A DNA stretch of 64,000 nucleotides from Tetraselmis striata (Eukaryota; Chlorophyta; Chlorodendrophyceae; Chlorodendrales; Chlorodendraceae), in contig VCJN01000839.1 in NCBI GenBank assembly GCA_006384855.1, positions 62,001 through 126,000 of the forward strand, read 5' to 3'. Every line of letters begins with the position of its first letter. Position 1 is the first letter of the stretch. This document shows positions 15,973 through 51,270 of the stretch, in pieces. The notes under the pieces were generated by a model. It saw nothing but the letters and a program-made list of their open reading frames with translations. It was not told where the DNA came from and made no database searches. The translations under genes and the position numbers were made by a program.

Positions 15973-16016
<44 letters not shown>

Positions 16017-22754: not shown

Positions 22755-22759
22755 CTGGT

Positions 22760-24193: not shown

Positions 24194-24387
24194 TGTTATA
24201 GTACAGTAGTACTAGCGCAGCGATAGCAGTATCCTGGGCGCCCGCCAGGCGCGCGCGCCGCTACATGGCGGCGCGGGCGCTGCAGGCGCCACACACTTCC
24301 TTTAACCTCACCGCATCCTCCTGCCCCTCCCACTCGGCTGCCCCTCGTCAGGGGCCTACGCCCGTGCCCTGCACCAGGGCTATAAGA
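24194..24387 (+). repeat. 3' LTR of the copia-like element
   Basis: Almost identical to 22760-22953. Its last bases form part of the 14-bp target duplication of the LINE that follows. Confidence 0.8.
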
Positions 24388-29360: not shown

Positions 29361-29374
29361 GCTATAAGACTGGT
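29361..29374. repeat. Right copy of LINE target site duplication
   Basis: gctataagactggt, identical to 24379-24392. Confidence 0.9.
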
Positions 29375-30143: not shown

Positions 30144-31393
30144 ATGGAATCCTACCTCGTCGTGCAACCGTCGACGGTACGCATTGTCGCCACCGCGGAG
30201 AAGCTGCGCCGCCTGTTGTCGACGGCGATGCTGATTGTGGCGGTGGCGGTGCTGTTGGCGTCGGCGGAAGGCGTCACAGGTAAGGCCCGGACCCGGGTTG
30301 CCCTCACGAGTGATAGGCAACCGGCAATTCACCACGATGCTGAAGCCGCCAGAATTCGAAACACGTCTTCTACCGTGCGCGACTACCCGTCCGGCGCCGC
30401 TGACCTTTTTCCGTTGCGTATTGCCCTGGAACAGAGAAGGACGCGCTATGGGCACTCCGCTCGCAGCAGCAAACTCCGCAAGAGGCGATAGCCACCTGGG
30501 ACTACTCCACCGACCCCTGTTCAGGTTCTTGGCAAGGAGTGACCTGTGTTGGAGGCGCCGTTACAGAGCTGTGAGTTCGCTGTGCATGCGCTTGTTGTCT
30601 GAACCTGCACCTTGAAGACTAGCAGCTCAATACCTATTCCAAATGCAAGACATACGCATGGAACGGTTCAAGAGCCGCCTACGTGGCGTCTGCTCCTCCA
30701 TACAACACTGGCAACACGAGCTGTGTGTATGACTTCGTGTTGATCCTGGGATTCACTACTCACTACTGTACTCTGCTTTTGTGTAGCATCAGCTGAAACT
30801 AAACCTTAAATGATTGCTGCTCGACTGTGTAGGTGGCTTGAAGAGAACCAGCTGAGAGGCACGGTGCCGGCTGAGCTGAGCGCAATGTCGAGCCTGACAG
30901 ACCTGTGAGTATGTCAGGCTCCTCAGCACCTTCACGCATGCGGTCTGTGACCGGCAAGCCCTCTCTATTGAGGGACATGTGGCTTGTTCCGGGGGCAGGA
31001 GGTCAGGAATTGGCGACTGGGATGGGTTGCCCTGCTGATGCTTGCGAGGTGGGTCTGCTGACATTGAGCTACGCTGCTGCCACCTGTGCAGATCGCTCAG
31101 TGAAAACCAGCTGAGAGGCACGGTGCCGGCTCAGCTGAGCGCCCTTTCACGCTTAACAAGTTTGTGAGTGCACCAACCAGGCTGCGTACCTCACCATGCT
31201 TGCTGTGTGTGAATGGTGGGTCGTCTCTGAGAGATGGCATGTGTCACCTCCCCGGATGTGTGCGTACCTGTGCTTGTTGGGCTCGGGGTGAGGATGGGTG
31301 GTATTACGGGGGGGCGGGGGGGGGGGGCGGGGGGGCTGCTGCTACATCGGAATGCACTGCTGTGCTAAATTGTCTCTGAGAGATGGCATGTGT

Positions 31394-31430
<37 letters not shown>

Positions 31431-31978
31431 TATCTGTGCGTACCTGTGCATGTTGGGCTTGTTGTGGGCATGAATGGTGGAAGTGAGGGGTGTGTGTGTG
31501 TGTGTGGGGGGGGGGGTGCTTGCTACTTTGGCCTACTACTGTGGTTCCAAGTGTGAGACTACTGTGAGTCCGGGCCAGGCTGGGCAGCCTTCCCTGCTTT
31601 CAATTGTGTAATATCTTGGCGGCTACACGTTTCCTCTGCAAACAGAAGTGGGAAGTAGAACGACTTTGAAATAGTATGACATTAATCACTACTGTACTCA
31701 TGCATTTGCGTAGCATCTGCTGAAACTAAAACTAAATTTTTGGCTGCTTGACTGTGCAGATCGCTTAGTGTCAACCAGCTGAGAGGCACGGTGCCGGCTC
31801 AGCTGAGCGCCCTTTCAAGGTTATCAAAGCTGTGAGTGCACCAACCAGGCTGCGTACCTCACCATGCTTGCTGTGTGTGAATGGTGGGTCGTCTCTGAGA
31901 GATGGCATGTGTCTCCTCCCCGGATGTACCTGTGCTTGTTGGGCTTAGGGTGGGGATAGGTGGTGGTACCCGGGGGGC

Positions 31979-32010
<32 letters not shown>

Positions 32011-35000
32011 GGCTGCTACATTGGATTGATTACTGCTGTAAGTCCAAGTGTGAGCCAGACTGGGCAGCCTTCCCTGCTTTCAATTGTGTAATATATTGTC
32101 GGCTACACGTTTCCTCCCCAAAAAGAAGTGGGAAGCAGAACGCTTTTGAAATATGGTGACATTAATCACTACTGTACTCGGCATTTGTGTAGCATTCGCT
32201 GACACTAAAACTGAGACGTTGGCTGTTTGACTGTGCAGATCCCTTCGTGGCAACCAGCTGAGAGGCACGGTGCCGGCTCAGTTGAGCGCTCTTTCAAGGT
32301 TATCCAGGCTGTGAGTGCACCAACCAGGCTGCGTATCTCACCATGCTTGCTGTGTGTGAATGGTGGGTCGTCTCTGAGAGATGGCATGTGTCTCCTCCCC
32401 GGATGGCTGCGTACCTGTGCTTGTTGGGCTCGGGGTGAGGATGGGTGGTATTACGGGGGGGCGGGGGGGGGGGGGGGGGGGGGGGGGGCTGCTACATCGG
32501 AATGCACTGCTGTGCTAGATTGCTTTTGTGATGCTTGTGAGATGGACAGGCTGACACTGATAGGGAGCTGCGCTGTTGCCACACATGCAGGTACCTGCAT
32601 AGTAATCAACTGACAGGCACGGTGCTGGCTGAGCTGGGCGGAATGTCGAGCCTGACCGACCTGTGAGTATGGCAGGCTCCTCAGCACCTTCACGCATGCG
32701 GTCTGTGACCGGCAAGCCCTCTCTATGGAGGGACGTGTGGCTTGTTCCGGGGGCAGGAGGTCAGGAATCGGCAACTGGGCTGGGTTGCCCTGCAGGTGCT
32801 TGCGAGGTGGGTCTGCTGACATTGAGCTGCGCTGTCACCCATGCAGATACCTGTATGGCAATCAACTGGCAGGCACGGTACCGGCTCAGCTGAGCGCCCT
32901 TACAGGCTTGACAGACTTGTAAGTGCGGCACTGACAAGAGATCTTACTTGCCTGTACCAGTATGGATTGCGGGGGCTGCATCATGCTGTGCCGTATCTGC
33001 TTTAGATAGATGCTGCATCCGGCCAAAGTCACTGCAGGTTTCACCTTGTCAAGGAGAGGTTAAAGGGACACGGGCTGCACAGGTTATATTTTAACGGTTG
33101 TGTGCTGCTTGTTATTTGCTTTCGTAAATTGTGATGCTGAGTTGGAGCTGCGCTTCTGGCTGTGCAGGAGGCTTGACGACAACCAGCTGACGGGCACAGT
33201 GCCGGCTCAGCTGAGCACCCTCTCGGGCTTGACCAAATTGTGAGTTCGAATTGCTCTGTATTGCCTTCAATATGGCTGCCAGTGGGCATACCCGCCCTTG
33301 CACCGCTTTGTCCGGCTAAGAAGAGGAATTATTGACAAACCCTTATTTTGAATGTCTGCCCACAGCGATGTCAGCAACAATTTCCTGTCCCCGGGGGGCT
33401 TAGTTTCAGAATTACTGCAGTTCGACCCACAGGCACCAGCTCCACACAGGTGCAGTCGCAGCCCTACCTGCCCATTACGATCTCAGGGCGTTCCCATAGT
33501 GGGCCTGATGCTTAACAGTAACCCTGCACATAGTTTACTATGGCGTCTGCAGGTCATGCCTATCAGTCTCCCAGCACTCGTACTGCCTCACCGACACACA
33601 ATGTATCATGGAGTATGTCTGTCTTCCAGAAGCAGCGAATTCATGCTTTGTCATGGCTTTCATGCAGGGATCCCTCCTATGAAATTGCCAACGCAGCGCC
33701 ACCTAGCAGTGGGCCACCGCCGGCGGAGATCATGGATACTCCACCCCCAAATACAGTCAGTAAACCGTTTGGACTGCCTGCTGCGGCAGTTATTGGCGGC
33801 ATTGGCGCAGCTGTGGCACTGGCGGTGGCCGGCACTGTCATTGCCATCTGCAGGTGCTACAAGAGGTCGTCCAAGCGCAAGGCCTCGGCAGCAAACTACG
33901 AACAAGACCCGTATCCCTGCATGGGGTACCCCGGCGCTACGCCCTCTGCCGCCCCCCGAGACACACATTCCATTTTCATGGACCTATCTCCACCTGCGAA
34001 GAACCCACACTCCTCTCCCCAGCCTTTCCTGGCATGTACAGGGCACAATGGGCCGTCTTCACCATCTTTTGCTACCACAGGAAGTATATCAACGCCGGTC
34101 CGCAGTTTGGAGAACACCCTTTGGCCAGACACCAATGCTGCTCTGGAAGCTCAATTTCCAGGCAGGAATGTGCCGCTGGACCCCGAGCACATTGGACACG
34201 AAGTCTACAACCTCCACGTGACGCTCCCCGACGACCTCAGTAAGCCTCCAATGCGACTTGTCCACATCTATCCAGTGGTCAACCACTGGCAGACTCTCCC
34301 AGTCTACGAGACGATGCCAGAACGTGACTACATCGAGGTTCCATACTGCGAGGCAAGCAACACCTACTGGGATGTCACCTGCATGCTGAGCTGGCGGTGG
34401 GCCAACGGCAAGTCGCCTGACATCGACGCAGCAGCCTCGCCCATATCGGAACAGCAGTTCTCGGAGCTGCAGCGCAAGCTGAAGCTAGCTGCGGACGCCG
34501 GCATGAAGTATGTGTGGATTGACTGGTGCTGCGTGCCCCAGTATGACGGCAACCCCATGGTGGAGATCCACCGAAGCCGGCTGTACTATGCGCGCGCTCG
34601 CGCCCTGATTGTGCTGCCCGGGTTCCGCGCGCTGTCGGAGACCCCTATGATGGTGATCCTGCTGACCCACGCCCAGCTGATGCTGGCAAAAAGCACCGGC
34701 GAGGACGTCGCCAGCGATCGGCTGATTGCCCAGGCGTTGAAGCGCATCATCGATGCCAAGGCGTGTGCGAGCCGGGAGTACTTTGGTGCGGGCCCATCAC
34801 AGCGTTGCCACTGAGGGAGGCTTTGCGGAGAGCAGTGGCAGTTTGATTCATAATGAGCCGCGATGCTGATGCTGCGTGCTTTTGCTGCCCTTGTCCTTGG
34901 CATGGCAGGGCGCGTGTGGACGCTGGCGGAGCGCATGGCGCGGCATGCCAGGAAGGAAAAGCTGTGCGAGTGGCTGTCGCTGGACCTGTGGTTGGGGATG

Positions 35001-35447
35001 GTGGTGGACGCAATGCTTGGAGGCAAGAATGATGCAGCAGCAGCCATCTACTGGCAGAAACTGTTTCCGAGTGAAGTGTTGGAGCAGCTGTCGAGCGTGG
35101 AGCAAGAGATCAACCTGGCGGTGGAGGCGTCCCATGCCAGCAAGAACCTATACAAGGCGGTGGCGGAGCTGTGCCGCAGCGGGTACCAGGTGTGGGCAAG
35201 CATGGCGCTCCAAGAGGATCCAACCACGGAGTGGCTGCAGACGTACTTGCTGGAGGAGGCGGGCCAGGTGTACGGGGCGTTCAACAAGAACGACATTGTG
35301 TGGAGTATCTACTGCTTCTTCTGCTACGAGCAGGACGTCACAGCAAGCAAGGCCCTGGGCAACCTGTGCAGGATTGCGAATGTGAACATTGCGGACTTGA
35401 GGATGTACAAGTCCATCGTGGCTGCTCAAAAGGAGCTAGAGAACTGA
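30144..35447 (+). CDS. LRR receptor with transmembrane helix and HET-like intracellular domain (gene 1)
   Basis: Assembled exons: 30144-30279, 30435-30570, 30833-30904, 31092-31163, 31760-31831, 32239-32310, 32591-32662, 32847-32918, 33168-33239, 33366-33449, 33668-34785 and 34909-35447, 2517 nt in all, an unbroken frame of 838 residues. Residues 1-45 hold a signal peptide (LLSTAMLIVAVAVLLASA). An LRRNT-2 cap follows (DPCSGSWQGVTC), then seven 24-residue LRRs of plant type (LxLxxNQLxGTVPAQLSALxxL), each one 72-nt exon with phase-2 introns. A cap exon (DVSNNFLSPGG) and a Pro-rich stalk precede a TM helix (IGAAVALAVAGTVIAI) near 330-350 and basic residues. The cytoplasmic part has LSWRW near 527, KYVWIDWCCVPQ near 569, ARALIVLPGF and REYFGRVWTLAE near 660. 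These correspond to the HET-domain motifs LSYxWG, WIDxxCINQ, IVxLG and RxWxxQE. HET domains (TIR relatives) trigger cell death in fungi. A recognition role is my inference. Confidence 0.88.
31395..31429. repeat. Poly-C tract, 35 bases
   Basis: The longest homopolymer in the window. It lies in the LRR intron 31164-31759, about 90 bp downstream of a G-rich tract. Confidence 0.95.
31979..32007. repeat. Poly-G tract, 29 bases
   Basis: Intronic. It stands at the same relative place as the G tracts at about 31309-31330 and at 32463-32488 in the sister introns. Confidence 0.95.
32463..32488. repeat. Poly-G tract, 26 bases
   Basis: Intronic, in the third of the duplicated LRR introns of gene 1. Confidence 0.95.
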
Positions 35448-35479
35448 CGGGTTTGTTGTTGTGATCTGCGGACAGAAAT

Positions 35480-35484
35480 TGTAA
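35480..35484 (+). terminator. TGTAA polyadenylation signal of gene 1
   Basis: tgtaa lies 33 bases after the stop codon. TGTAA is the standard polyadenylation signal of Chlamydomonas and Volvox nuclear genes. Confidence 0.6.
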
Positions 35485-36389
35485 AATTGATGATAGTACG
35501 TGGCTGTCGGTAGTGCCGACGCAATGTGGGTCATGCGCTGTCAAGACAGCCGAACACAGAGATGATGTAATAGACGCTTGATCTCCATCATGGACCTTGC
35601 CGCCTTTTCATCATATTCCATCTACTGTCTTGATGCCCTGCACCCAGACGCGCATCCCGCAGCATAATTACTGCTAAACCTAGAAGATGCTCACAGTTGT
35701 GCCCAACCGAAACACATTACTGTTCACTCAGTTCACAATCTGCCGTCTTTTTCCCCGCTAGTATTGATAATGTCATCTTGTGCCACAGCTTGCCGGCACC
35801 TTGCTGATCAGGCCATCAGTGGGCACATGTGGGCACATGCACAAGCAAGGCACATGTGGGTGTGCCTGTGCATGTGCCTTCCTGGCGCTGCTGGAGGGAG
35901 ACGAGGACAAATATCCCTCAGATTGCACCCAAACACGTGTGGCTTACTGTAGGGAAATCTATCCCTAGGTGAGCATCGGTTACACTTGCGCCCGCATAGT
36001 TTGTTTGGAGCTTGCGCAATGCTTGTCATACTAGCATTTGTGTCGCATGTTGCTTTGGTGCTGAGCCCTTGAGTACGTAGGCGCTGGCGATGGCAGCTAA
36101 TCCATCGAAGCATGCCACTGGGACACTGCTACATGTCACCTGTATGTAACGCGTAACGGGATGTAATCATCGAGTGCTGATGGAGGAGGGGAGTGAGGGT
36201 GGGGGGGGGGGGGGGGGGGCATGAATACAGGCAGCTACCTGAGACTGCACCGTTTGCATACCTCTAGTTAAGCTTACCTAGCATCCGAGATGCGTGACTG
36301 CGTCCATGCTGAATGCGCATGGGCATAGGCAGCACCCACGGCACAGACAACGTCCTCAGCAGCAATAGCTGCACGAGCAGTGGTCTAGA
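35485..36389. other. Intergenic, no gene seen
   Basis: Contains cacatgtgggcacatg-type short repeats (35820-35880) and a G tract at 36201-36219. No open frame is convincing. Confidence 0.5.
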
Positions 36390-36467
36390 CATGGGCATGG
36401 GCATGGGCATGGGCAGGGGCAGGGGCAGGGGCAGGGGCAGGGGCAGGGGCATGGACATGGGCATGGA

Positions 36468-36513
<46 letters not shown>

Positions 36514-36517
36514 GGTT

Positions 36518-36567
<50 letters not shown>

Positions 36568-36632
36568 GGTATGGACTTGGGCTTGGGCATGGGCATGAGC
36601 ATGGGCATGGGCATGGGCATGGGCATAGGCAA

Positions 36633-36693
<61 letters not shown>

Positions 36694-37480
36694 AGCAGGG
36701 GCATGGGCAAGGCCAGGGGTAGGGGCATGGGCATGAGCATGGGCATGTGCATGGGCATAGGCATGGGCATGGGCATGGGCATGGGGATGGGGAAGGGCAG
36801 GGGCAGGGGCAGGGGCAGGGGCATAGGCATAAGCATAGGCAGGGGCATGGGCATAGGCATGGGCATGGGCATGGGGATGGGGATGGGGATGGGCAGGGGC
36901 AGGGGCAGGGGCAGGGGCATGTGCATGGGCATAAGCATGGGCATGGGCAACGGCAGGGATAGCGGCATGAGCATGAGCATGAGCATGTGCATGTGCATGG
37001 GCATGGCCAGGGGCAGGGGCAAAGGCAGGGGCCGGGGCATGGGCATGAGCATGGGCATGTGCATGGGCATAGGCATGGGCATGGGCATGGGCATGGGGAT
37101 GGGGAAGGGCAGGGGCAGGGGCAGGGGCAGGGGCATAGGCATAAGCATGGGCAGGGGCATGGGCATAGGCATGGGCATGGGCATGGGGATGGGGATGGGG
37201 ATGGGCAGGGGCAGGGGCAGGGGCAGGGGCATGTGCATGGGCATAAGCATGGGCATGGGCAACGGCAGGGATAGCGGCATGAGCATGAGCATGAGCATGT
37301 GCATGTGCATGGGCATGGCCAGGGGCAGGGGCAAAGGCAGGGGCCGGGGCAGGGGCAGGGGCATTGGCAGGGGCAGGGGCAGGGACAAGGGAAGAGGCAG
37401 GGGCGGGGGGAGGGGGAAGGGCACGGGCATGGGCACGGGCACGGATACAAGGGGCACGGGCACGGGCATGGGCATGGGGA
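36390..37480 (+). repeat. GGGCAT/GGGCAG hexanucleotide array with 312-bp higher-order repeat
   Basis: About 1.1 kb of (gggcat)n and (gggcag)n with variants (gggatg, gagcat, gtgcat, ggcata). Because the unit is a multiple of three, all frames stay open, giving artefactual MGMGMG, HGHGHG and PMPMPM proteins. Two successive blocks repeat with all their variants at exactly 312 bp (52 hexamers): 36759 matches 37071, and 36987 matches 37299. Runs of GGGNNN on the plus strand fit G-quadruplex rules continuously for hundreds of bases. Confidence 0.97.
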
Positions 37481-37486
37481 ATTGCA

Positions 37487-37894
37487 ATTGAATTACAACG
37501 TGCTGACTTTCTGCTCTCCACCGCCCCAAGCCGAGTTGCTTTTAGGGCATGCTTTATTTCACCGATGTGGGAACCCTAGGGATTACGGTTGCAACTTCTG
37601 GCCATCCTCCTTCGTGTTTGCGCCCCTCCTCCTTCCATGCTGCAGAGTATGCCCCCCCCCCCCCCCCCCCCCCCCACCCCTTGCCGTAGCGGGGATGCTA
37701 TGGATAGTGGTCAGCGGAAGTGTGGCGGTTTATGCTGGAGGTTGGTTGCAGGGGTTCTCGAGGTGCGGGGTGTGGTCATGTTGGGTTTGAAGGACTGCAG
37801 AAATATGCGGAGGAAATTGTGATCGAAGTTGAATTACAACATGCTAATCCGCTGCTCACCGCCGCACGGATCGTTTTAGGGTTAGGTTTTAGGG
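37487..37894. repeat. Dispersed 60-bp direct repeat with telomere-like motif
   Basis: ttgaattacaac(g/a)tgct followed by ctgctc(t)ccaccgcc and ttttaggg occurs at about 37489-37548 and 37829-37883. The second copy runs into ttttagggttaggttttaggg split over 37874-37894, degenerate telomere-type units. A C tract lies at 37652-37675 between them. Confidence 0.65.
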
Positions 37895-38018
37895 CTAAAC
37901 TATGCAGTCGTTCAAAGGAGATAGGTGGGTTTCCTTGAGCGCACAGTGCCCGTTGGCGGTGAGGGGGGGGGACGGGATCTGTTAATGCCGAGCCCGTCCA
38001 TCGGCGCTTGGCTGTTCT

Positions 38019-40424
38019 GATCTAAACGTGTTTATGGGGTGTCCTAGTGCGACCCGTACGGTATGCGAGTGGTTTTAAACAGTTAAGGAATCGGTACCAT
38101 CGGGTTTCAGTACGGGTTGCCCCATTGCCCGCCAGCCATGCGCTCCCGGCCGAGGAGCTACTTAGGCCAGCCACCAACAGCTCGTCTGTCATCTTCCAAC
38201 TCGCTGCCTTCGGCAGCGGCTTCGCGTACTTGGGCGCGCGAGGGTCACATAGGCTGAACAATTCCGCACCGAGGTTCATCCACCCTTTAGTGATTGGGAC
38301 CTCGTGCCGCGCACATGCGTTACAACATCAAGCAACGACAGACAGCCCCTCGATAGTGTGGTTTTCACTACTCGTGCGCCCGAAGTCGTTTTACGTCTTT
38401 GCCCTAGCTTTGCAGTCGGGACGTTCTCGGGTAGCGATGCGCACAGCTAGGAATTGGAGCTGGGGGGTCCCGGTTGGGTGGTTTAAACCTAAAAACCCGA
38501 AGTCGATTCGCAGTACATGCCTTCGGGGCTCCCGCAATGGAGCACGCTCTCACATTAGTCAACTCTTGAGATTATTTAAGGTGGACGCGCTCGAGACCAT
38601 AGCCGTTGCTCGTCACGGTTGTCAACGATGACAATAACTACGCCTAGCGCAACAAATCGGCGCGGACGGAGGAGGACGTCCGTGTCGTCGGGGCGGCCAC
38701 TTGCTGGCCAGCAAAACACTTCAACCCGCCAGCCCGCATGTCCTCGCGGCAGGACGCCGTGGCACCAACGGTCGTTACACGCTATGGTTTTCCGTAACTA
38801 CTCGCGTAATTGGTCCGGTACGGGGTGGCGCCGCTCATTCGCCGCGGTGTTTTGAGAGGGCTTGTTGCCCTTGCCCTAATCGTGCTGCAGCAACGTCTAA
38901 TGTGATCACAATGGGAGGCGTTTGCGGAAGTCGCCCCGGCGCGTCTCCGACGCCTTTTAAAGCAGCGGCGTCGTCACAAGGACCACGGCAACCTGTATTT
39001 GTCCGCCGGGGGGCAGCTCTACCACCTGGCATGCTTGACGTCTCGTGGTATCCGTAACTACCCTTGTTCGACTCCGGGTTTGGAACCTCGGCGCCCGTCG
39101 CTGGTGCAGCAGCGGCGGCCACCTCGTCGTCACCCTCGCTCCGACATCATGGGCATCGTTACGGGCGGGCGTAGGCCACAAGGGCCTCTACGCCGGCCAA
39201 CCCGCTCTCAACGTCACGACATCTCATCCGTGACAACACGAGCTGCCCGCAGGGGGACAGCTCCGCCACCCAACGCGACTTGTGCATTTCGTGGCGTCAA
39301 CATATGCTCGCGACTTGTGAGGTGGTCGGCAGCCGTCGTTGGTGCAACAAAGGCGGCTACCTCACCGCGCTCCGCGAAGTAAAACCCGCAGCGACAGCTT
39401 ACCGAGTAGGTGGGTCTTGTGCGACGCCGCCGACAAGTGACCCCGACACACCAAAGAGCCAGTACGGCAGGACCACACTGGATACCACGTGCCCGCGCCC
39501 CCAGTGGGCCACCCACCTCACGCGCTTCCCTTCACGCTGGTGATGGGGGAGCCTTACACCGCTGTCATCGCGCGAGATGCGTGTCCAACCCTCGTAAGGT
39601 GCATCGCCAGTACAGACGTGGGTTACCCTCGCACGGCGTACGGCGTACCGGTACTTCACCCGACTGTACGCGGAACGCTCGCGCCCCGCGCGCACAGCTA
39701 TACTCGTCCTACAAGTGCATGTACCGCTGCCCTGCTGGGCACTCGTCGCCAATTTGGCCGTTCCTATTGGTCTGCAATTCTGGCTCTTGCCGCATGCCGC
39801 CACGGCGCGCGGCAAATGCTTTAGGACGCCGTTAGGAGACTGGACCTTAATTCCGCGACACGTCCGGCCTATGTGGCGCCGGCGTTCGCGCCGTCAACAT
39901 CTCTTGTCCGTCCGAGACCCCTTTTACAACTCAAGACACCTTCCGCCTTGGTCTGGTCGGCACGCCGGGCGACTGCCCACGCTCGCAGTCGTAAACGAAG
40001 CGCGTGTAAACTGGCAAAACCAGACTCGGTTGCATGTTGAAATGATCTAAACGCGTTTATGAGGTTTCCTAACAATTTAACTGTCCTACTGCGACCCGCC
40101 GTACGGTCTGTTAGTGGTTTAGACCGGTTAAGTGGTAACCGGTACCATCGGGTTTCAATTCGGGCTGCCCCATCGCCCGCGAGCCCTGCGCTCCCGGCCG
40201 GAAGCTACTTAGGCCAGCCCGCAGCAGCTCGTCTGCCATCTAGAGCTCGTTGCCTTCGGCAGCGCCTTCCCGTTTTCCGCCTCCGCCCTGCGGGCTCCTC
40301 CTCCGACATCCCCCCCCTTTCGCTGAACCTTCCTAGCCATAAAATGGCGCCTTTTCCGTGTAAAACAACGCCTCTGCAGTCCGCACCCTTTTTGGCAAGA
40401 TCAGACTCGATTGCATGTTGAAAT
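38019..40424. repeat. 2025-bp repeat unit followed by an internally deleted 381-bp copy
   Basis: Unit 1 (38019-40043) and unit 2 (40044-40424) both start gatctaaacg(t/c)gttta and both end with cagactcg(g/a)ttgcatgttga. They share about 200 bp at the left (cggtaccatcgggtttca; gctcccggcc; gctacttaggccagcc), and unit 2 then jumps to the right end. No coding sense was recognised in the interior of unit 1. The structure suggests a tandem repeat or a mobile element with terminal similarity. Confidence 0.75.
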
Positions 40425-41044
40425 GCCTGAGTACGGGCGCGATACATCGGCGGACGATGACATGCTTGCGCTGGCACACCTTTTGACATGGAATAACCGT
40501 AGCATGTGAATCCGATTTCATTATGTAACATATGCGTGCTTTTACCTGTGCGTGTTTGGTCCGCGTGACTCGGGTAGTGGTGTGCGTGCCCAGTTTCTGC
40601 AGTCGATGCACTGTACTTTATTGACTTCACTGCCTTGCACTTATACAATTGTTGGCCATGAGTTAATATCGTTTCTCTAACGTCAAAATAATTGAGAGTT
40701 TGCCCGCGCTCTTGCCATACAGTGGCTAGCTCATGTCGCGGTTGTTGACTCGGGGTGCCACGCGTGCGGCGGGTGGGTGTTGTATATTGTGCGCACGATC
40801 GCCCATTGGCGGGCCATCCCATCAGCCTCGCGTCGGTAGGAGCACCGAATGTGGCGAGAAGGGTGAGAGCCAGCAAGGTTCAGCAAGAAAGAATATTTTC
40901 GGGAAACGAATGTAGTGGAAGGTGGAAGAGCGATTACCCTCTACACGTACGTTTTGTTGCGAGGGAGACATATGTGTGAGCTGGACAAACGGCATGGCAA
41001 CGCGCATCGGGTGACAAGAACCCGGGTTATCTATCAAGCTTTGT

Positions 41045-41069
41045 TCTTCATGTAATGTATACATGAAGA
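41045..41069. other. 10-bp inverted repeat (hairpin) in AT-rich DNA
   Basis: tcttcatgta (41045-41054) and tacatgaaga (41060-41069) are perfect complements with a 5-base spacer. They are followed by the palindrome-containing atatatcgatatat near 41086-41099. No gene end is nearby, so the function is unknown. Confidence 0.6.
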
Positions 41070-41262
41070 TGTATGAACATATGATATATATCGATATATC
41101 ATGTGGTACTAACATAACATCTGATATGGCATATGGTATATGAAGTAACTTGACAGTTGAATCAGCGATGCGTCGATTTTTCAGAAAATTTGAACAGAAC
41201 GGGTTCTATATCACTGGCCTACAATTCCATGAATTGCATTGCCATCGCTTGGAAGTAGCGCT

Positions 41263-41500
41263 ACCAGCAGCGAGCGTTTGCATTGCCAGCGCTTTGAAGT
41301 ACCAGAGTTTTAATTTTTTTATTACCAGCAGCGAGTACCAATACCAATACCACTACCAATACCAGCTATACCAGCAGTACCAGCAGCGAGTAGCGAGTAC
41401 CAATACCAGCAGCGAGCGTTCGCATCGCCAGCGCTTTGAAGTACCAGAGTTTTTTTTCCATTAGCAGCAGCGAGTAGCGAGTACCAGTACCAGTACCTCC
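41263..41500. repeat. Duplicated 142-bp unit with (ACCAGCAGCGAGT/ACCAAT)n
   Basis: accagcagcgagcgtt(t/c)gcat followed by cgccagcgctttgaagtacc-like text recurs at 41263 and 41405, a 142-bp period. It is interspersed with short taccagcagcgag and accaatacc units. Confidence 0.85.
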
Positions 41501-42280
41501 CAACCGTGAGATCGTAATCGGACGGATGTGTAATTAAGGACCGTACTGGTGGGCGGGCGGACCCCATGCGGGTTGGTCCGAGGCGGGCACGCACGTCCAT
41601 GATGATGGGCGGTAAAGGCAGCTTGTCAAGACCAAAACTTGATCAATTGTAACAAATTTCAAATTTCAAATTTGATCTTCTAATTCTTTATGTACTGCGA
41701 CAAACTATGTGAGTCATAGTTACATGTGGCATGCACTTCCAACAAGTGAACAAGGCGATGCGCACTATGCCTCTCCCCCTCCAAATGCCTATAGTAAGCC
41801 ACTAATATGCGGAGGAAATGATGAGAACAAGCGTTGAGTAGTGCCCCGGCGACCCAGCAGAGGGTACCTAGCGGTGCTGGGGGCTTGGTGCGGCTGTTGC
41901 ACTGCTGGTTTTGGTTGCTGGCGCGGGTGCTGGAAGTGCGATAAGGAGAGGTCGGCAGGCGTGCTGGATAAATATCTAGGTTTGCATGCGAGCGCGCGCG
42001 GCGGCAGCAGCGGCGGCGAGGCATGAAACTGGCGGTGCACAGGGAGGCTGGGAGGCTGGATCGCTGGGAGGCTGGATCCTGAAAGTATTATGAGATAGAT
42101 ACAAGCAAAACCTTCGCAATTTACAAAACAACCGCCCCTCGGTTTTCACGGATAATACTGATTTAAACCAGCAGGTCCTTTCGTCGGAATGGCCTTAACT
42201 ACCTGTATTGTTGTGCGAGCACGTCATGGTGGCCTCAAAGCAAGTAATGTTGACAACATACATGTACGAATTGATCCCTT

Positions 42281-43066
42281 ATGGCTTCGCTCTACGGATG
42301 GCTCGAACCGGAGCGCTACGGATTTCATCGTGGATCATCTACCCATATGCCCCGTAGCGAACTACAAGCACCGCATGCATACCGCTTTGAAAATCTGTGG
42401 GCATCTGTGGCAATTGATGCGGGGGCGGTGCTTGACCGGGACCGCTCGGGAGCCGGCGACTTGACCCTTGAGACGAGTGGGCTGCGCCCAGCGGACCGCT
42501 CGCGGCCGTCGGACCTGACGCTGGCGGGATGGGGAGGGGCGGCGTGCGATTACATGATCGACTTCGCGTGCGTGTCCTCCACGACCCCCACTTGGAGCAA
42601 CGACCCCCGCTGGTGCATCCCGGGAATCGCGGCGACCGAGGCGGAGCATGCTAAGTTGGCAGCGGACCGGGCGTCTTCCGCCCCAGTGCAGGGTGTTCAC
42701 CGATACTACCCTTTTGTGGTTGAGGACCGCGGCCGTCTCGGAAAGTCCGCTTTGACGGTGGTCTACATCTTCGCGGTGCTGTTGGCTGTGCGCAACTTCC
42801 CTGGCGGTCCTTCCGCCCCGACCTCTTGCTTTCTTCGTGGTCAATCCGTTCAGGCACTTCGAAACTTTGTCGCCAGCCAACCTGCAGAGTTCCGCCGTCA
42901 CCTGTCGCGCACACGGCGGGGGCTGTTGCAGCGGGTCTCGGCTTGCGTGCATGGTACCCTGGGCCGCATTCTCTCTGCCGGTGTGCAGATGGCCAAGTCT
43001 GATGCGTGTGCTCGTGCCCACTCTGCGTCTTCTCATGTTACTGCTTCCACCCCGCAGTCGCTGTAG
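42281..43066 (+). mobile_element. 3' tail of a second LINE: restriction-like endonuclease domain
   Basis: An open frame of 261 codons carries RPSDLTLAGWGG, then YMIDFACVSS, an AEHAKLAADRAS segment and RYYPFVVEDRGRLG. This is the same order as GRPADVGLFGYGG, AIDTTIAP, AERHKIQKY and RFVPFAVSEFGSLA in the LINE at 24393-29360. The fragment therefore corresponds to the C-terminal endonuclease region of a related but distinct RLE-type LINE family on the plus strand, 5'-truncated before the reverse transcriptase. The first about 40 codons may be flanking sequence. The 3' end lies somewhere in 43067-43180, and no target duplication was identified. Confidence 0.7.
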
Positions 43067-43302
43067 AGGACCTTTCTGATTGCCTTTTATTTTGGTGATT
43101 TCCGATATCGCCTTCTGCTGCTAGCTCATGTAAGTATGTACGAATTAGTACGAGTAGTAATGGATCAGGGACGCCCGCAATGCGCCGCCAGCGCAGCCGT
43201 GCATCAAGACGCCGCGAACTCGACATGTGTGCACATTCACTGGAAACAAGTAAACAACAGTGCACTCGTCCCCACTGCTGAGCGCGACGCTGTGTGTGCT
43301 TG

Positions 43303-43340
43303 CTCAAACCCAAACCCAAACCCCAAACCCCAAAGCGCTA
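43303..43340. repeat. Telomere-like (AAACCC)n stretch
   Basis: tcaaacccaaacccaaac and following aaaccccaaacccc resemble degenerate telomeric DNA (telomere units would be AAACCCT). It could also be a simple hexamer repeat. Confidence 0.5.
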
Positions 43341-43401
43341 AGGGGTACAGTGTTTCGCGGCCTCCAGGCTAGCGCGACTAGGCGCGCCGAGCTGTCCGAA
43401 G

Positions 43402-43409
43402 ACTATATA
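43402..43409 (+). promoter_or_regulatory. Possible TATA box of gene 2
   Basis: tatataa in the context gactatataactcgagc, about 360 bp upstream of the start codon at 43767, in otherwise GC-rich DNA. Confidence 0.4.
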
Positions 43410-43766
43410 ACTCGAGCACCTGTGCGGTTCCCCACCCGCTCGACGGCTCAGACATACCATTACACGGACCGCCATCGCCACGGTGCATCGATCGTGGTCG
43501 TACCCGTTTGTGCTCTCGGCGAGTCGCTACAAAGATCCGGCATCGTCCTCACGCCTGCAGCTCGCGCGGTTTCTTGGAAGCGCCACAGGCGCCGTAGCAG
43601 ATAAAGCAGCCAGCGGTCGTGCTTCTCTGAACCGCATCCGGCCGCACACACGGAGAAGATATCACCGCGGTGCCTCGGCTCGTACTCGTGTGGCAACCAG
43701 CCCGCTGGAACATCACCCTCAACGGACGGAATCACGTCTCCCGAACGATCTCTATCCTGCCCCACC

Positions 43767-46700
43767 ATGAGACCCTATCTCGCCGTGCAACCGTCGACGG
43801 TACGCCCTGTCGCCGCCACCAAGAAGCTGCGTCGCAGTCGCCTGTTGTCGACAGCGGTGCTGTTCGTGGCGGCGGCGATGCTGTTGGCATCGGTGGAAGG
43901 AATGACGGGTAAGGAAGGAACTCGGGTTGCTCCTACGAGTTTGTGTAGTGGGCCGCCGACCCCGTCTCGTGTCGCCAGCCACGCAACTATAACTGCCAAA
44001 ACTTCCAATTCTGTCCTACCGTACATAACCTCGTACGATTTGCTGACTCTGTAACCTGCTTCTGTCATGAAATAGAGAAGGAGGCGCTGTGGACACTCCG
44101 CTCGCAACAGGAAAACCCGCAGGAGGCGATAGCCACCTGGGATGACTCCACGGAGCCCTGCCTTGGCTGGCAAGGAGTGACCTGTGTTGAAGGCGCTGTT
44201 ACCGAGCTGTGAGTTGGCTGTGCAATTATTGTTTGTCGTGTGTACCTGTCTCGCAAGGGGAAGCGGCTCGCGCAGGGACAAGTACTCGTTATATACGATA
44301 CCTGTGCATGCAACGTCCCAAGAGCCGCCCGTGCTGTGTCTGCATGTGATGAACGATGGAATTGACGGGCAGTGTATGTGAGCTTGTGTCGATAGTCTGA
44401 TGACACCCTGCTTCAGTCACCAGTTTCTGCGACCCGTGCTGTTTCTGAGAGAGAGCTTCGCTGGGCTTGCAGGGCTCTTGGTACAAACCAGCTGACAGGC
44501 ACGGTGCCGGCGGAGTTTAGCGCCCTTTCAAGCTTGACCTCTTTGTAAGTTTGGAGGGCTGAGTTATTACCCCTGCTTGCAGTGGATGCATGCCATGTTT
44601 GCCTGGGATTATTGAACTTGGATTCCTCGCTGGGGAGGACGAGCTCAGAGTGCTTGATATGGGGCATGGAGCGACACAGCTAGAACTTGGGCAGTGCATT
44701 TACTTACTAACTTTGCGTTGGTGGCTGTGCAGGAGCGTTCCAAGAAATAACCTGACCGGCGTGGTGCCCGTGCAGCTGAGCACCCTTACACGGTTGGAGC
44801 TGCTGTGAGTGCCAGAGCCCTTCGGCCGTGCCCTTGGGTTGGCAGCAGAAAGGGGCTTTGTGGTACTCAAGCTGCAGCATGCGGCTTCTTGCGAGAGACA
44901 AAGTCGACATTCAGAGTGCCTGGGTAGTGCAGAGCGATGCGGTTCTGATACGTATTGATTGCCGCTCTTATCCTGCAGGAGGCTTGATGCAAACAAACTG
45001 ACCGGCGCTATACCCCAGCAGCTTAGCGTCCTGTCAAGCTTGTACAGAGTGTGAGCGCCAATAGCCGGCGTTGACTCTGGTGCAACTGACTGTCTCTGTG
45101 CTTCCCTGGACTGTATAGTGCTGAATTGAAGGGGGTGTTCTTATTGATATATATATATATATTTTTTTGGGGGGGGGGGGGGGGGGGGGGGGGTGGAAGT
45201 TAAATGGCGCTGCCGCTGAACACGTTCTGCTTTGCTGCCAACCTCTTCCACAGAGATCTTGACAATAACGCACTGACAGGCACGGTGCCGTCCCAGCTGA
45301 GCGTCCTCTCAAGACTAACGACATTGTGAGTTTGCCAGGCTGGGGAGTGTCTTGCTTGGGCTTATGCTTGTCATGGGTGGAGGAGGGGGGAGAGAATGGG
45401 GTGCAGTGGGGATACGTACTGGATGATGGGAGTACCCTCCTGACATGGGAGTACACCGCGGCCTGGTACAAAACGGGTATCCTGAAGGCAGTCCATGAGG
45501 TGTTTTGCGGCATTGTTTAGTTCCGGAGAACTAGGGCACACCCAATGCTAATAGATTCCTATTGCGCATCAAATGGTGCTATGCATCTCTTAGTCGAAAG
45601 AGTTTTGGAATAAATCTGCAATGAAGTCATTTTAACGTGAAATGGTAAAATGATACATGTGCACAGTATCATTGCATAGACTGCACACGACGTTCTCACT
45701 GAGGTTTTCTCAACCTCGATCGCAGTTAGGGTATTTCTATATAACTTCTATGGTCTTGCTGCAACTGCCTGCTGATGTCCGTACGAGCATTCGTCATGAA
45801 CTATGACCGAGTAATATCGGGTATCATGCCGTATGCAAAACCCTTAGTACCCAAGATAAATGTGGTGTCGAGCTTTTTGATGGTCGTTGCTTTTTGATGG
45901 TCTATCCCTGCCTCCGGAACACTCTGCTATCCTCCTTTGCTGACTTCTTTGCTTTCTATTGACGACGGGTACTTACAGTCCAAGATGTTTCTAGTGGGGG
46001 CCACATGTTTTGGCAACGTGCGAGCCCATGGATGAGTATTGCCGCGGACATTATTATTGTATACAGAGTTCTGTGGTGTTGCATGTCCGCCACAGCTGCC
46101 AGGCCGGTGTTACGGGGGCTACGCGTATAGTATCTGTGGCACTGCTAATACATGGGGCTTGTAGATGGACCTGACTTACAGCATATCAGACTGACTTGTG
46201 CTCCTGCCCGTGCAGGTATTTGAACAGCAATGAACTGATAGCCACGCTGCCGGCGCAGCTGAGCACCCTTTCAAGGCTCGAGTTATTGTGAGTTCGCCAG
46301 GCTGGCGAGGGCCTTGCTTAGAGTCGATAGGCAATGTGACCTGCCAGGGCTCTTACATGCAGTTTGTTATGAATGAAGTTAGAGGAGAATGGGCATGCAG
46401 TTGGCATGTGTCAGCAGGTCCCTGCTGGCTGGGACTTACTGTGCTGAGCAGGAGTCGTGCTTCCGCCGTGCAGGGATATTTCCAGTAATGGATTGACAGG
46501 CACAATGCCAGCTCAGCTGAGCAACCTTGCAAGGCTCGAGTTATTGTGAGTTCGCCAGGCTGGCGAGGGCCTTGCTTAGAGTCGATAGGCAATGTGACCT
46601 GCCAGGGATCTTCTTACATGCAGTTTGTTATGAATGAAGTGAGAGGAGAATGGGCATGCAGTTGGCATGTGTCAGCAGGTCCCTGCTGGCTGGGACTTAC

Positions 46701-49700
46701 TGTGCTGAGCAGGAGTCGTGCTTCCGCCGTGCAGGGATATTTCCAGTAATGGATTGACAGGCACAATGCCAGCTCAGCTGAGCAACCTTGCAAGGCTCGA
46801 GTTATTGTGAGTTCGCCAGGCTGGCGAGGGCCTTGCTTAGAGTCGATAGGCAATGTGACCTGCCAGGGATCTTCTTACATGCAGTTTGTTATGAATGAAG
46901 TGAGAGGAGAATGGGCATGCAGTTGGCATGTGTCAGCAGGTCCCTGCTGGCTGGGACTTACTGTGCTAAACAGGAATCGTGCTTCCGCCGTGCAGGGATA
47001 TTTCCAGTAATGGATTGACAGGCACGGTGCCAGCTCAGCTTAGCGCCCTTTCAAGTCTATTGGAGATGTGAGTACGCCAGACTCCGCAGCACCCCTTGCT
47101 CTAGCTCATAGACCTGCGGGTCGTCTGTGGGAAGTGGCATGTGTCTTCTCAGGGAGACGCGGGGGGGGGGGGGGGGGGGGGGTCCATTTAGATACACTGC
47201 CGTGCTGGGTTGCTTTCGTGATGTTTGCAAGATAGATCTGCGGACATTGAGCTGAGGCTGTTGCCGTCTGTGCAGATCGTCTGCTTTCAACAAACTGATG
47301 GGCACAGTACCGGCTCAGTTGAGCTCACTGTCAAGCTTAACTTACTTGTAAGTGCGCCAGGTCAAGCACAAGTCCGTGGTGGCAGTTCATGGATGGCGTC
47401 TGTGTGGCTGCATGTGGATTCTCCTGAAGAGGGGGAGATGGACATTGCTGTGCTTGGGGAATGCCCTGCTTGCACGTACAGCATTTGTCATTGTCTCTAG
47501 TGCTGAGGGGGGCTGCGCTGCTGTCCCCCATACAGGTACCTGAATGGCAATCAACTGACTGGCACAGTGCCCGTGCAGCTGAGCACCCTGGCCAAATTGG
47601 AGCTATTGTGAGCCCCAGGCCCCTCGGCAGTGCTTCTCTGCTGCCGGCAGATTGGGGACCTGCAGTTCTTAAAATGCAGTGTGTGGCTTCCTGTGAGAGA
47701 CCAAACCAATACTCAAATCGCCCGGGGAATGTAGCACTGTGCGGTTCTGAAACACATTGATTGCCGCCCTTATCCTGCAGGAGGCTTGATGCAAACAAAC
47801 TGATCGGCGCTGTACCCCAGCAGCTGAGCGTATTGTCAAGCTTGTACAGAGTGTGAGCGCCAATAGCCGGCGTTGCCTTTTGGTGCAACTATCTGTCTCT
47901 GTACTTGATCTGGACTGTAGAGTGCTGAATCGGCGGTGGGTTCTTTCTTGTTTTTGGGAGGAGAGGGAGGTGATGTTGTGTGGCGCTGCCGCTGAACATG
48001 TGCTACTTTGCTGGCAACCTCTTTTGCAGGGATCTTGACAACAACGCACTGACAGGCACAGTGCCGCCGCAGCTGAGCGCACTTTCAGGACTAAAGACCT
48101 TGTGAGTTGGCTAGGCTGGGGAGTGTCTTGCTTGCAGTTGATGGGCAGCGGGACTTGCCAGGGGCATTCACATGGCTTGTTGTGGGTGGAGGGGGAGGAT
48201 AATGGGAGTGCAGTCGGCGTTTGTCAGCAGTACACTGCTGGCCGGTACTACTTTACCGGCAATCATATTGATGAGGGGTACTTGCAGTCCAATATTTGTA
48301 GCGGGGGCCACGTACAAAGCCCCTGCGTGGCCCCATGTGAGTGCTTCCGCGGACATTATTATTGCACACAGAGTTCCGTGGTATTGCATGTCCGCACAGC
48401 TGCCAGACCGGTGCTACCGGGGCTACGCTTATAGTATCTGCAGTATTACTAACCCATGGGGGCCTTATGTGGCTTTGACTTACAGCATATCAGACTGACT
48501 TGTGCTCCTGCCCATGCAGGTATTTGAACAGCAATGAACTGACAGGCACGGTGCCGGCGCAGCTGAGCGCACTTTCAAGACTTGAGTTATTGTGAGTTCG
48601 CCAAACTAGGGAGTGCGTTGCCAAGAGTAGATTGCCAGGGCTCGTGCACGTAGCTTGTTATGGAGTGAGAGGAGAATGGGGGTGCAGTTGGCACATGTCA
48701 GCAGGTCTGCAGGCTTGAACTTACTATGCTAAGCGACCACCGGGTCAGGCTCTAGCCGCAAATGGTTGTGGATGGGTGGTGTGTTGCCAGGGTCACTGCA
48801 GGTGGACTATTCTGAAGAGAGAGACAGGGACCGTGTACTTGGGGAATGCCCTGCTGACTGGTATGGCTTCTGCAAGCGTTTCTAGTGCTGAGAGGGAGCT
48901 GCGCTGCTGTTCTGCATGCAGGTACCTGTATGGCAATCAACTGGAAGGCACATTGCCGGCCCAGCTGAGCGCGCTGTCAAGCTTAACAGACTTGTGAGTA
49001 CGCTAGGCCATGCATTGCGTTTTACGCTGTTGCTAGTCCCCTTGCGTGCCCTTGATGTGCGTCTAGCACAGCTTCGTCCATCAGAACATAGAGACAGACG
49101 ATTAACGGACACTGTTTGGAATATTGACAAACAGTGATGTCAGCAATAACTTCCTGACCCTGGGAGATTTCGTTTCAGAGACACTGCAGCTTGGGACTCA
49201 AAGACCAGTTGTAGACAGGTAGACAGCCAGCCCTACCTGCACTTTACAATCTCAGCGCACTCCATGATGTTAGACATTTAGTAGCCCTGCATGTGAAGTT
49301 GTTACGTCAGCACACCCCATGCCCTCCAGGATCCCAATCTCCACTCCCGCCTTATCCTTGTCTTCTTGACACATCGGTCACTTTCTCTTTCTTGCAAAAT
49401 CGGGATTGTCATCCAAGTGCATTGCTCTACACGCAGGGATACCTCCTCCAATGATAACTCCAACGCAGTGCCACCTCCGCCTCCGCCTCCATCTCTGACC
49501 AAGAGAGATGCCGTTCCCCCGCCCGTGGGAATTCCGCCTCCACGCGCGGAGCTCATGGACACACCATCTCCACCTACAGCTGATGAGCTGTTTGGACTGC
49601 CTACTGCGGCAGTCATTGGCGGAATTGGCGCAGCTGTGGCACTGGCGGTGGCCGGCATCGTCATTGCCATCTACAGGTGCTACAAGAGATCGACCAAGCG

Positions 49701-51270
49701 CATGGCCTCAGCAGGAAACTACGAACAAGACCGGTACCCCTACATGGAGTACCCCGCCACTACGCGCTCTGCCGCCCCTCGCAACACACATTCCCTTTTC
49801 ATGGACCTATCTTCACCTGCGAAGAATCCCTACTCCTCTTCCCCGCCTTTCCTGGCATTTACAGGGCACGATGGGCCGTATTCACCATCCATTGCTGCTG
49901 TGGGGTCTACGTCGTCACCGGTCACCAACGGGGAAAAATCCCTTTGGCCAGACACCACTGCTGCTCTGGAAGCTCAGCTGCCAGACCGGAATGTGCCGCT
50001 GGACCCCGAGCACATCGGACACGAAGTCTACAACCTCCACGTGACGCTCCCCGACGACCTCAGTAAGCCTCCAATGCGACTTGTCCACATCTATCCAGTG
50101 GTCAACCACTGGCAGACTCTCCCAGTCTACGAGACAATGCCAGAACGTGACTACATCGAGGTTCCATACTGCGAGGCAAGCAACACCTACTGGGACGTCA
50201 CCTGCATGCTGAGCTGGCGGTGGGCCAACGGCAAGTCGCCTGACATCGATGAAGCAGCCTCGCCCATGTCGGAACAGCAGTTCTCAGAGCTGCAGCGCAA
50301 GCTGAAGCTAGCTGCGGACGCCGGCATAAAGTATGTGTGGATTGACTGGTGCTGCGTGCCCCAGTATGATGGCAACCCCATGGTGGAGATCCACCGAAGC
50401 CGGCTGTACTATGCACGCGCCCGCGCCCTGATTGTGCTGCCCGGGTTCCGCGCGCTGTCGGAGACCCCTATGATGGTGATCCTGCTGACCCACGCCCAGC
50501 TGATGCTGGCAAAAAGCACCAGCGAGGACGCCGCCAGCGATCGGCTGATTGCCCAGGCGTTGAAGCGCATCATTGATGCCAAGGCGTGTGCGAGCCGGGA
50601 GTACTTTGGTGCGGGCCCATCACAGCGTTGCCAGTGAGGAAGGCTTTGCGGAGAGCAGTGGCAGTTTGATTCATAATGAGCCGCGATGCTGATGCTCCAT
50701 GCTTGTGCTACCCTTGTCCTTGGCATGGCAGGGCGCGTGTGGACGCTGGCGGAGCGCATGGCGCGGCATGCCAGGAAGGAAAAGCTGTGCGAGTGGCTGT
50801 CGCTGGACCTGTGGTTGGGGATGGTGGTGGACGCAATGCTTGGAGGCAAGAATGACGCAGCAGCAGCCATCTACTGGCAGAAGCTGTTTCCGAGTGAAGT
50901 GTTGGAGCAGCTGTCGAGCGTGGAGCAAGAGATCAACCTGGCGTTGGAGGCGTCCCATGCCAGCAAGAACCTATACAAGGCGGTGGCGGAGCTGTGCCGC
51001 AGCGGTTACCAGGTGTGGGCGAGCATGGCGCTCCAAGAGGAGGCAACCACGGAGTGGCTGCAGACTTACTTGCTGGAGGAGGCGGGCCAGGTGTACGGGG
51101 CGTTCAACAAGAACGACATTGTGTGGAGTATCTACTGCTTCTTCTGCTATGAGCAGGACGTCACAGCAAGCAAGGCCCTGGGCAACCTGTGCAGGATTGC
51201 GAATGTGAACATCGCGGACTCGAGGATGTACAAGTCCATCGTGGCTGCCCAAAAGGAGCTAGAGAACTGA
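43767..51270 (+). CDS. LRR receptor with transmembrane helix and HET-like intracellular domain (gene 2)
   Basis: Paralogue of gene 1. Exons: 43767-43908, 44076-44208, fourteen 72-nt LRR exons (starts 44473, 44733, 44979, 45254, 46216, 46474, 46735, 46996, 47276, 47536, 47781, 48030, 48520 and 48922), 49135-49218, 49437-50608 and 50732-51270. Together they give 3078 nt, an unbroken 1025-residue frame. Signal peptide LLSTAVLFVAAAMLLASVEG; LRRNT cap TEPCLGWQGVTC; 14 LRRs with consensus LxLxxNxLTGTVPxQLSxLxxL; cap DVSNNFLTLGD; Pro-rich stalk (PPPPPPPSLTK); TM helix near 511-535 (same IGAAVALAVAG core); HET-like domain with LSWRW near 715, KYVWIDWCCVPQ near 757 and REYFGRVWTLAE near 845. From about LDPEHIGHEV onward it is almost identical to gene 1, with only a handful of substitutions. 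The last intron is also 123 bp. The ectodomain differs strongly in repeat number and sequence. A surface-recognition role is inferred. Confidence 0.88.
45169..45193. repeat. Poly-G tract, 25 bases, preceded by (AT)n and T run
   Basis: Intronic in gene 2 (intron 45051-45253). The preceding bases are an alternating AT run and a T run. Confidence 0.95.
45500..45955. other. Extra sequence in an LRR intron of gene 2 (possible insertion)
   Basis: Intron 45326-46215 (890 bp) is a duplicate of intron 48102-48519 (418 bp), sharing gacattattattg and agcatatcagactgact blocks. The longer one has about 450 bp of unrelated, AT-richer DNA around these positions. No ends or target duplication could be defined. 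Confidence 0.45.
46285..47067 (+). repeat. Three tandem 261-bp LRR exon-plus-intron units
   Basis: Units 46285-46545, 46546-46806 and 46807-47067 are nearly identical, including the intron (gtgagttcgccaggctggcg) and the exon (ggatatttccagtaatggat). Exon starts 46474, 46735 and 46996 are exactly 261 bp apart. The third exon has diverged in its second half. This is a recent amplification of one repeat module. Confidence 0.95.
47161..47182. repeat. Poly-G tract, 22 bases
   Basis: Intronic in gene 2. It occupies the same relative position as the G tracts in the gene 1 introns 31164, 31832 and 32311. Confidence 0.95.

Follow-up and report, generated by a model that had tools for sequence, protein, structure and literature searches.

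The HET domain of fungal incompatibility proteins has been described as a remote relative of the TIR domain, with homologs in green algae and with a glutamate shared by the two families (passages of PMC4986451 and PMC9153377). According to sections of PMC10197012, the HET domain is enough to cause cell death in fungi, where HET proteins govern allorecognition; a TIR-like enzymatic activity has not so far been demonstrated for HET, and its enzymology is an open question. How unicellular green algae recognize microbes, viruses and each other at the cell surface is little known. Here we describe two tandem genes, gene 1 and gene 2, each of which joins a leucine-rich repeat (LRR) ectodomain, one transmembrane (TM) helix and a cytoplasmic HET domain. 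They lie in a window of 64,000 nucleotides, the whole stretch analysed (positions 62001-126000 of contig C663, in an assembly of 224.1 Mb and 2903 contigs). The host is Tetraselmis striata, a unicellular marine green alga of the Chlorodendrophyceae; an earlier note on this DNA, made from the letters alone, had implied a volvocine affiliation.

The two gene models are complete, as the earlier note had claimed: all introns are GT-AG (11 of 11 in gene 1, 18 of 18 in gene 2), and the reading frame continues unbroken across the joins. The features of the pair are as follows.

30144..35447, + strand: gene 1 (TSEL_009708), LRR-TM-HET receptor-like, 12 exons, 838 residues (gene model and JGI model P0003)
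30144..30279, + strand: gene 1 exon 1, predicted signal peptide region (hydrophobic residues 20-46, by hydropathy)
30435..30570, + strand: gene 1 exon 2, LRRNT_2 cap (residues 46-83, E 6.3e-7)
30833..33239, + strand: gene 1 LRR exons, seven of 72 nucleotides, each one 24-residue plant-type repeat
33366..33449, + strand: gene 1 LRR-capping exon (FDVSNNFL...), 84 nucleotides (gene model)
33765..33863, + strand: gene 1 transmembrane helix region (residues 320-352, by hydropathy), followed by basic residues
34386..34931, + strand: gene 1 HET domain, PF06985 (residues 527-667), split by a 123-nucleotide intron at 34786-34908
34929-34931, + strand: gene 1 codon for Glu667, the last residue of the HET match
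43767..51270, + strand: gene 2, LRR-TM-HET receptor-like, 19 exons, 1025 residues (gene model)
44076..44208, + strand: gene 2 LRRNT_2 exon (residues 48-84, E 3.1e-5)
44473..48993, + strand: gene 2 LRR exons, fourteen of 72 nucleotides (gene model)
49588..49686, + strand: gene 2 transmembrane helix region (residues 507-539, by hydropathy)
50209..50754, + strand: gene 2 HET domain, PF06985 (residues 714-854), split by a 123-nucleotide intron at 50609-50731

Every LRR exon of both genes holds one repeat, in the same phase; an 84-nucleotide capping exon comes after the LRR exons in each gene. The LRR region of gene 2 contains a tandem exon-plus-intron unit of 261 nucleotides, two copies of which are identical and a third 78% identical. 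In our gene model the TM helix and HET are encoded by one exon; the JGI model places an intron between them. That model, P0003 (Tetstr1 TSEL_009708.t1), is 100% identical to gene 1 except for this extra splice, which removes as an intron 312 in-frame nucleotides (104 residues) immediately past the membrane helix. This juxtamembrane stretch reads through without a stop in both genes and has a related counterpart in the database protein P0004; it was therefore retained in our model of gene 1. A shorter isoform of gene 1 lacking the 104 residues may also be made.

Along each protein the order is a signal peptide (by hydropathy), LRRNT_2 and plant-type LRRs, one TM segment, a basic juxtamembrane region and HET. 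The secreted plant-type LRR ectodomain, single TM helix and HET domain proposed in the earlier note are borne out by Pfam for the domains, with LRRNT_2, LRRs and HET above the curated cut-offs in both proteins, and by structure comparison for the ectodomain, many of whose closest solved structures are plant peptide-hormone receptors; the HET motifs quoted there are present. The PF06985 scores are 32.0 and 32.5 bits for genes 1 and 2 (curated cut-off 22.5 bits), over profile positions 4-146 of 146. Each protein has two hydrophobic stretches, read from hydropathy as a signal peptide and a single TM segment. A profile comparison with both HET and TIR had been suggested: HET was found, and with Pfam matches taken up to E 1 no TIR family appears in either protein. 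The same matches include no kinase family and neither NB-ARC nor NACHT. Both proteins combine LRRNT_2, LRRs and a single TM segment, as expected of plant LRR receptor-like proteins (LRR-RLPs) and LRR receptor kinases, and both show the Toll-type combination of an LRR ectodomain with a single, hydropathy-predicted TM segment.

The earlier note had raised the possibility that the LRR and HET exons belong to separate mRNAs. The opposite is seen in two relatives, genes 1 and 2 themselves being known from genomic DNA. The first, P0056 (789 residues), comes from the T. astigmatica transcriptome MMETSP0804 (taxid 1074897; MMETSP is a transcriptome project) and contains LRRs, a single hydrophobic helix (266-300) and HET (26.5 bits); it begins inside the LRRs, has no signal peptide and is probably 5'-incomplete. 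The second, P0007 (943 residues), runs from LRRNT_2 through HET in 2829 nucleotides of codons on a contig of 3082 nucleotides. Its residues 61-943 map in pieces, at 98-100% identity, to T. striata contig C1419 across 6006 nucleotides, with the 72-nucleotide LRR exons separated. Because 3082 nucleotides are too short for the 6006-nucleotide genomic span, the lengths point to a spliced sequence.

The tandem pair of the earlier note stands, and it turned out to be part of a larger multi-locus family. Protein searches of the T. striata genome found at least 62 exon-level places on 27 contigs with the HET domain of gene 1 and at least 63, largely on the same contigs, with that of the database protein P0047; both counts are lower bounds, take in probable haplotype pairs and include some places with stops. 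At all four further loci opened, LRR exons lie upstream of HET and a strongly hydrophobic 21-mer shortly before it on the same strand, with 20, 5, 8 and 7 LRR exons on contigs C1237, C1997, C1618 and C1419, respectively, after removal of alternative readings. Loci L039 and L041 have extra hydrophobic 21-mers between LRR exons, which we take for intron noise. The database models P0047 and P0052 are LRR-TM-HET proteins as well. Other T. striata members have different outer parts in their models: that of P0055 has Cys-rich repeats and a single helix, that of P0008 is short and that of P0009 contains several helices, the non-LRR character of the last two being known from models alone.

Several database proteins deserve separate mention. 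The Cys-rich outer repeat of the HET receptors P0054 and P0055 (QCYLEDP...C..CW) has no Pfam match at the thresholds used. Within the T. striata LRR-HET model P0006 (TSEL_020582.t2) lies a tyrosine-recombinase-like stretch (Phage_int_SAM_1, E 1.2e-7), which may stem from the insertion of a mobile element or from an error in the model. P0004, P0007, P0008 and P0009 were considered as cases from other species and set aside, as they match T. striata loci at 99-100%; an extra outer part of P0004 and P0005 was considered as a replacement of the LRRs and rejected on finding LRR exons upstream at both loci at the DNA level. P0053, P0054, P0057, P0058 and P0059 are unplaced, and P0053 and P0054 are at best 45% identical to the T. 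striata loci fetched. A second set of T. striata HET sequences (L001, L008) comprises 31 places over the Pfam cut-off and has only contig C1446 in common with the receptor type; by eye, the long L008 frame has a multi-pass membrane look with HET behind.

The two halves of the receptors differ in their variation. The identity of gene 1 to gene 2, taken per 100-nucleotide window, is 47-80% up to position 33810 and 74-92% from 33810 to 34210, after which a uniform cassette begins:

34210..35447, + strand: HET cassette (HET with its intron, and the helical C-terminal region), identity to gene 2 of 94-100% in twelve 100-nucleotide windows, 34210-35410

The identity of the cassette spans the 123-nucleotide intron, falls to 75% in the window with the stop codon and is 36-64% beyond. 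Synonymous divergence (dS) is 0.03-0.08 in the cassette versus 0.15-0.76 in the remaining blocks, whose borders are approximate; the LRRs are excepted, their dS of 1.15 being unused as a distance because the alignment is arbitrary across a differing repeat number. As synonymous sites are also conserved, protein-level selection alone is insufficient to account for the cassette. Its simplest reading would be a gene conversion tract; recent exchange by unequal crossing-over is another. The ratio of nonsynonymous to synonymous divergence (dN/dS) between the two genes amounts to 0.21 for HET and 0.13 for the region that follows.

Among 41 repeats from gene 1, gene 2 and the gene on C1237, amino-acid change is concentrated at LRR positions 2, 4, 5, 23 and 24, where the proportion of nonsynonymous differences (pN) is 0.577 versus 0.157 elsewhere, a value reached by none of 300 random position sets. 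In LRR structures these positions form the outward, ligand-facing side of the strand. The synonymous proportion (pS) is also raised there (0.81 versus 0.48), and positions 7 and 18 are variable too; for these reasons positive selection is not proven, and the face appears to show relaxed or diversifying change.

The motif residues of HET are strongly conserved. In an alignment of 55 rows (P0003-P0055, gene 1 and gene 2; without P0001 and P0002), 51 rows with more than 250 aligned query positions were kept, P0003 being a copy of gene 1, and R661, W663, E667, D572 and Q578 are identical in all 51. The four rows dropped are P0038-P0041; in one of them, P0039, the R-x-W-T-x-x-E motif was not found. 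The blocks W-x-D...Q and R-x-W-T-x-x-E align with two other T. striata HET frames, one of which reaches the glutamate. Judging by the motif, E667 would correspond to the published HET/TIR glutamate, and it may be catalytic. The relation of HET to TIR, which the earlier note had invoked, is a published one (parts of PMC4986451 and PMC9153377) and gained no independent support from our fold and profile searches: the predicted structure of P0004 has alternating strands and helices, with a predicted local distance difference test score (pLDDT) of 85-96 over 261-410, and no significant match to a solved structure. In the T. striata genome searches PF01582 TIR was found at no place and NB-ARC at none, and TIR_2 was found at 13 places, 12 of them over the cut-off.

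Three protein database searches gave 39, 42 and 38 hits (7995, 7990 and 7996 candidates scored). Among the matches listed, the LRR-TM-HET order occurs only in Tetraselmis proteins or in the unplaced contig proteins P0053, P0057 and P0059. The suggestion that volvocine relatives might have the same domain order found no support among these matches, where volvocine HET is mostly fused to ankyrin, SPRY or armadillo repeats and in a few cases stands alone; no LRR pattern was found in the volvocine fusions scanned, which are 34-46% identical to the search queries. The Chlamydomonas reinhardtii protein P0061, named NSG7 in UniRef, combines the same HET subfamily (HET E 2.5e-9) with ankyrin repeats.

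A tree was built from 46 of the 51 aligned rows; its root is arbitrary, its deep branches are long and some models may be incomplete. Leaving P0036 and P0051 aside, the non-receptor rows, 31 in number, group in a single clade (100/99). The receptor-type rows, of which there are 13, split into two groups, one of 5 rows (100/99) and one of 8 (97/99). Because each group mixes LRR and non-LRR models, the tree suggests that outer parts may have been exchanged on a conserved HET domain.

The gene on C1237 is a counterpart of gene 1 in its surroundings as well. Its HET domain is 99 and 96% identical to that of gene 1 in the two exons, the gene bodies are 84-100% identical, and it has at least 20 LRR exons versus 7. 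Its left neighbor is the same mechanosensitive-channel gene as in the window (90-93%). No second HET was found on C1237 in the genome searches with the gene-1 and P0047 HET queries, and the right flank of the window is found in the genome only in the window itself. The C1237 copy may represent either the second haplotype of gene 1 or a duplicate of the segment. Other probable pairs, such as C2431/C2591 (both 95-99% identical to P0047), are closer to each other, which points to a duplicate; the common neighbor fits either. If it is a haplotype, both the number of repeats and the presence of gene 2 would be polymorphic at this locus, as in plant resistance-gene loci.

The other features of the neighborhood are these.

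14807..21741, + strand: MscS-type mechanosensitive-channel gene, piecewise match to the N-terminal part of P0060, also beside the gene-1 counterpart on C1237
24601..29361, − strand: two long retroelement-like open reading frames, end to end (26551-29361 with RVT_1, E 7.2e-6, below the Pfam cut-off)
36390..37478, + strand: array of 181 copies of the hexamer CATGGG between the receptor genes, open in several frames
56343-57062, − strand: open reading frame with a glycosyltransferase 61 match (E 1.4e-13), right of gene 2

A retroelement seems to lie between the channel gene and gene 1. There are two pairs of direct repeats, one of 195 nucleotides (22757-22951 and 24191-24385, 99% identical, 1434 nucleotides apart) and one of 64 nucleotides (38089-38152 and 40137-40200, 89% identical, 2048 nucleotides apart); the latter are perhaps the ends of a decayed element.

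On balance we lean toward the view that these proteins are single-pass surface receptors with a diversified LRR sensor and a uniform HET effector, analogous to Toll-like receptors. The variable secreted LRR solenoid would bind an extracellular ligand from a pathogen, a bacterial partner, a virus or a conspecific; ligand-driven clustering of receptors in the plasma membrane would gather the cytoplasmic HET domains, and these would start signaling or regulated cell death, as TIR does below Toll-like receptors. The sensor half would be diversified by duplication of repeat exons and by change on the binding face, and the effector half held uniform by conversion and purifying selection. A role in immunity or in self/non-self recognition would be in keeping with this scheme. 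A more specific version, which we put forward tentatively and with some doubt, is a cell-surface immune or allorecognition system that arose as an independent green-algal counterpart of Toll: HET, gathered in clusters at the membrane, would consume a nucleotide or nicotinamide adenine dinucleotide (NAD) via Glu667 and kill the cell or raise an alarm, and a modular family would exchange its ectodomains with the effector kept uniform by conversion.

Other readings are less probable. The receptors might serve development or physiology, sensing an endogenous peptide or a theca or matrix signal, with HET as a non-lethal scaffold. The resemblance of the ectodomain to plant peptide-hormone receptors agrees with this, as it would for any plant-type LRR, and the present analysis yielded no evidence of immunity for the LRR-TM-HET family. 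However, the family has many loci, differing outer parts, repeat numbers of 7, 14 and at least 20 and a homogenised effector, and such variation is commoner in recognition families than in single-ligand hormone receptors; we therefore find this reading rather unlikely. Still less favored is mating or gamete recognition, with green-algal HET proteins acting in conspecific recognition like some fungal ones. Its main attraction is the name of the C. reinhardtii relative P0061, since NSG genes are induced by nitrogen starvation during gametogenesis. The link to NSG7 is nevertheless through the HET domain alone and not through the LRR-TM part, no paper naming NSG7 together with Chlamydomonas was found in the open-access literature searched, and we know of no sexual reproduction in T. 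striata. It is very improbable that HET is an inactive remnant and that the proteins serve in adhesion or as decoys: HET is below the Pfam cut-off in P0006, P0007, P0009, P0047, P0052, P0053, P0054 and P0057 and has no match in P0055, but the motif residues, E667 included, are invariant in all the rows kept, and dN/dS is 0.13-0.21 in the cassette. Finally, a false join of an adjacent LRR gene and HET gene is hardly credible, for although genes 1 and 2 come from genomic DNA only, joining errors seem to occur in the annotation (the JGI model P0060 fuses the C1237 copy to the upstream channel gene) and P0056 lacks a signal peptide and the first part of the LRRs, this transcriptome protein has LRRs, one helix and HET together, P0007 runs from LRRNT_2 to HET on its 3082-nucleotide contig, TM and HET share an exon in our model, and the order recurs at every locus opened.

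The Toll-like reading that we prefer can be set against the systems already described. No LRR-TM-HET protein was found among the matches listed from titles and abstract openings in the open-access literature, a weak absence, as subscription papers and bioRxiv are mostly outside it; the main text of PMC10834447, which deals with the surface receptors of 350 plant and algal genomes, nowhere contains the terms heterokaryon, HET domain or Tetraselmis. These genes may encode a type of immune or self-recognition sensor that has so far gone unrecognised, and HET coupled to a surface LRR would offer a switch that can be tested by ectodomain swaps or forced dimerisation in culturable algae.

Like plant LRR-RLPs and LRR receptor kinases (FLS2, MIK2, HAESA), the Tetraselmis proteins have a hydrophobic N terminus, LRRNT_2, a plant-type solenoid and a single TM segment; unlike the receptor kinases they lack a kinase domain, and their intracellular part is a large HET domain in place of the short tail of known RLPs. 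Since part of PMC10834447 defines LRR-RLPs by one or two TM segments and no kinase domain, genes 1 and 2 would count as such. The NLR-like proteins of Chromochloris zofingiensis also combine green-algal LRRs with predicted membrane segments, and an origin in surface surveillance has been proposed for them; as described in sections of PMC7145615, they have a nucleotide-binding domain, whereas the proteins of genes 1 and 2 have none. The volvocine HET fusions, such as NSG7, share the HET subfamily with its C-terminal extension but differ in their sensor repeats, which are ankyrin, SPRY or armadillo.

The fungal HET proteins (HET-E, TOL, HET-6, PIN-C) have PF06985 with matching motif blocks as well as the W-T-x-x-E helix. 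They are intracellular and either carry NACHT and repeats or lack a known sensor, and an LRR ectodomain was not met in those described in the portions of the literature covered. Finally, animal Toll and Toll-like receptors likewise consist of an LRR ectodomain, one TM segment and a cytoplasmic domain, which in Tetraselmis belongs to a family that others relate to TIR. That domain is nevertheless HET (PF06985) and not TIR, the LRRs follow the plant-type LRRNT_2/LRR consensus with one repeat per exon, and no common descent is shown; because there is no TIR profile match, the proteins are not members of the Toll-like receptor family. If they do behave as Toll-like receptors, they would represent a convergent surface receptor of the green lineage built on the module of fungal incompatibility.
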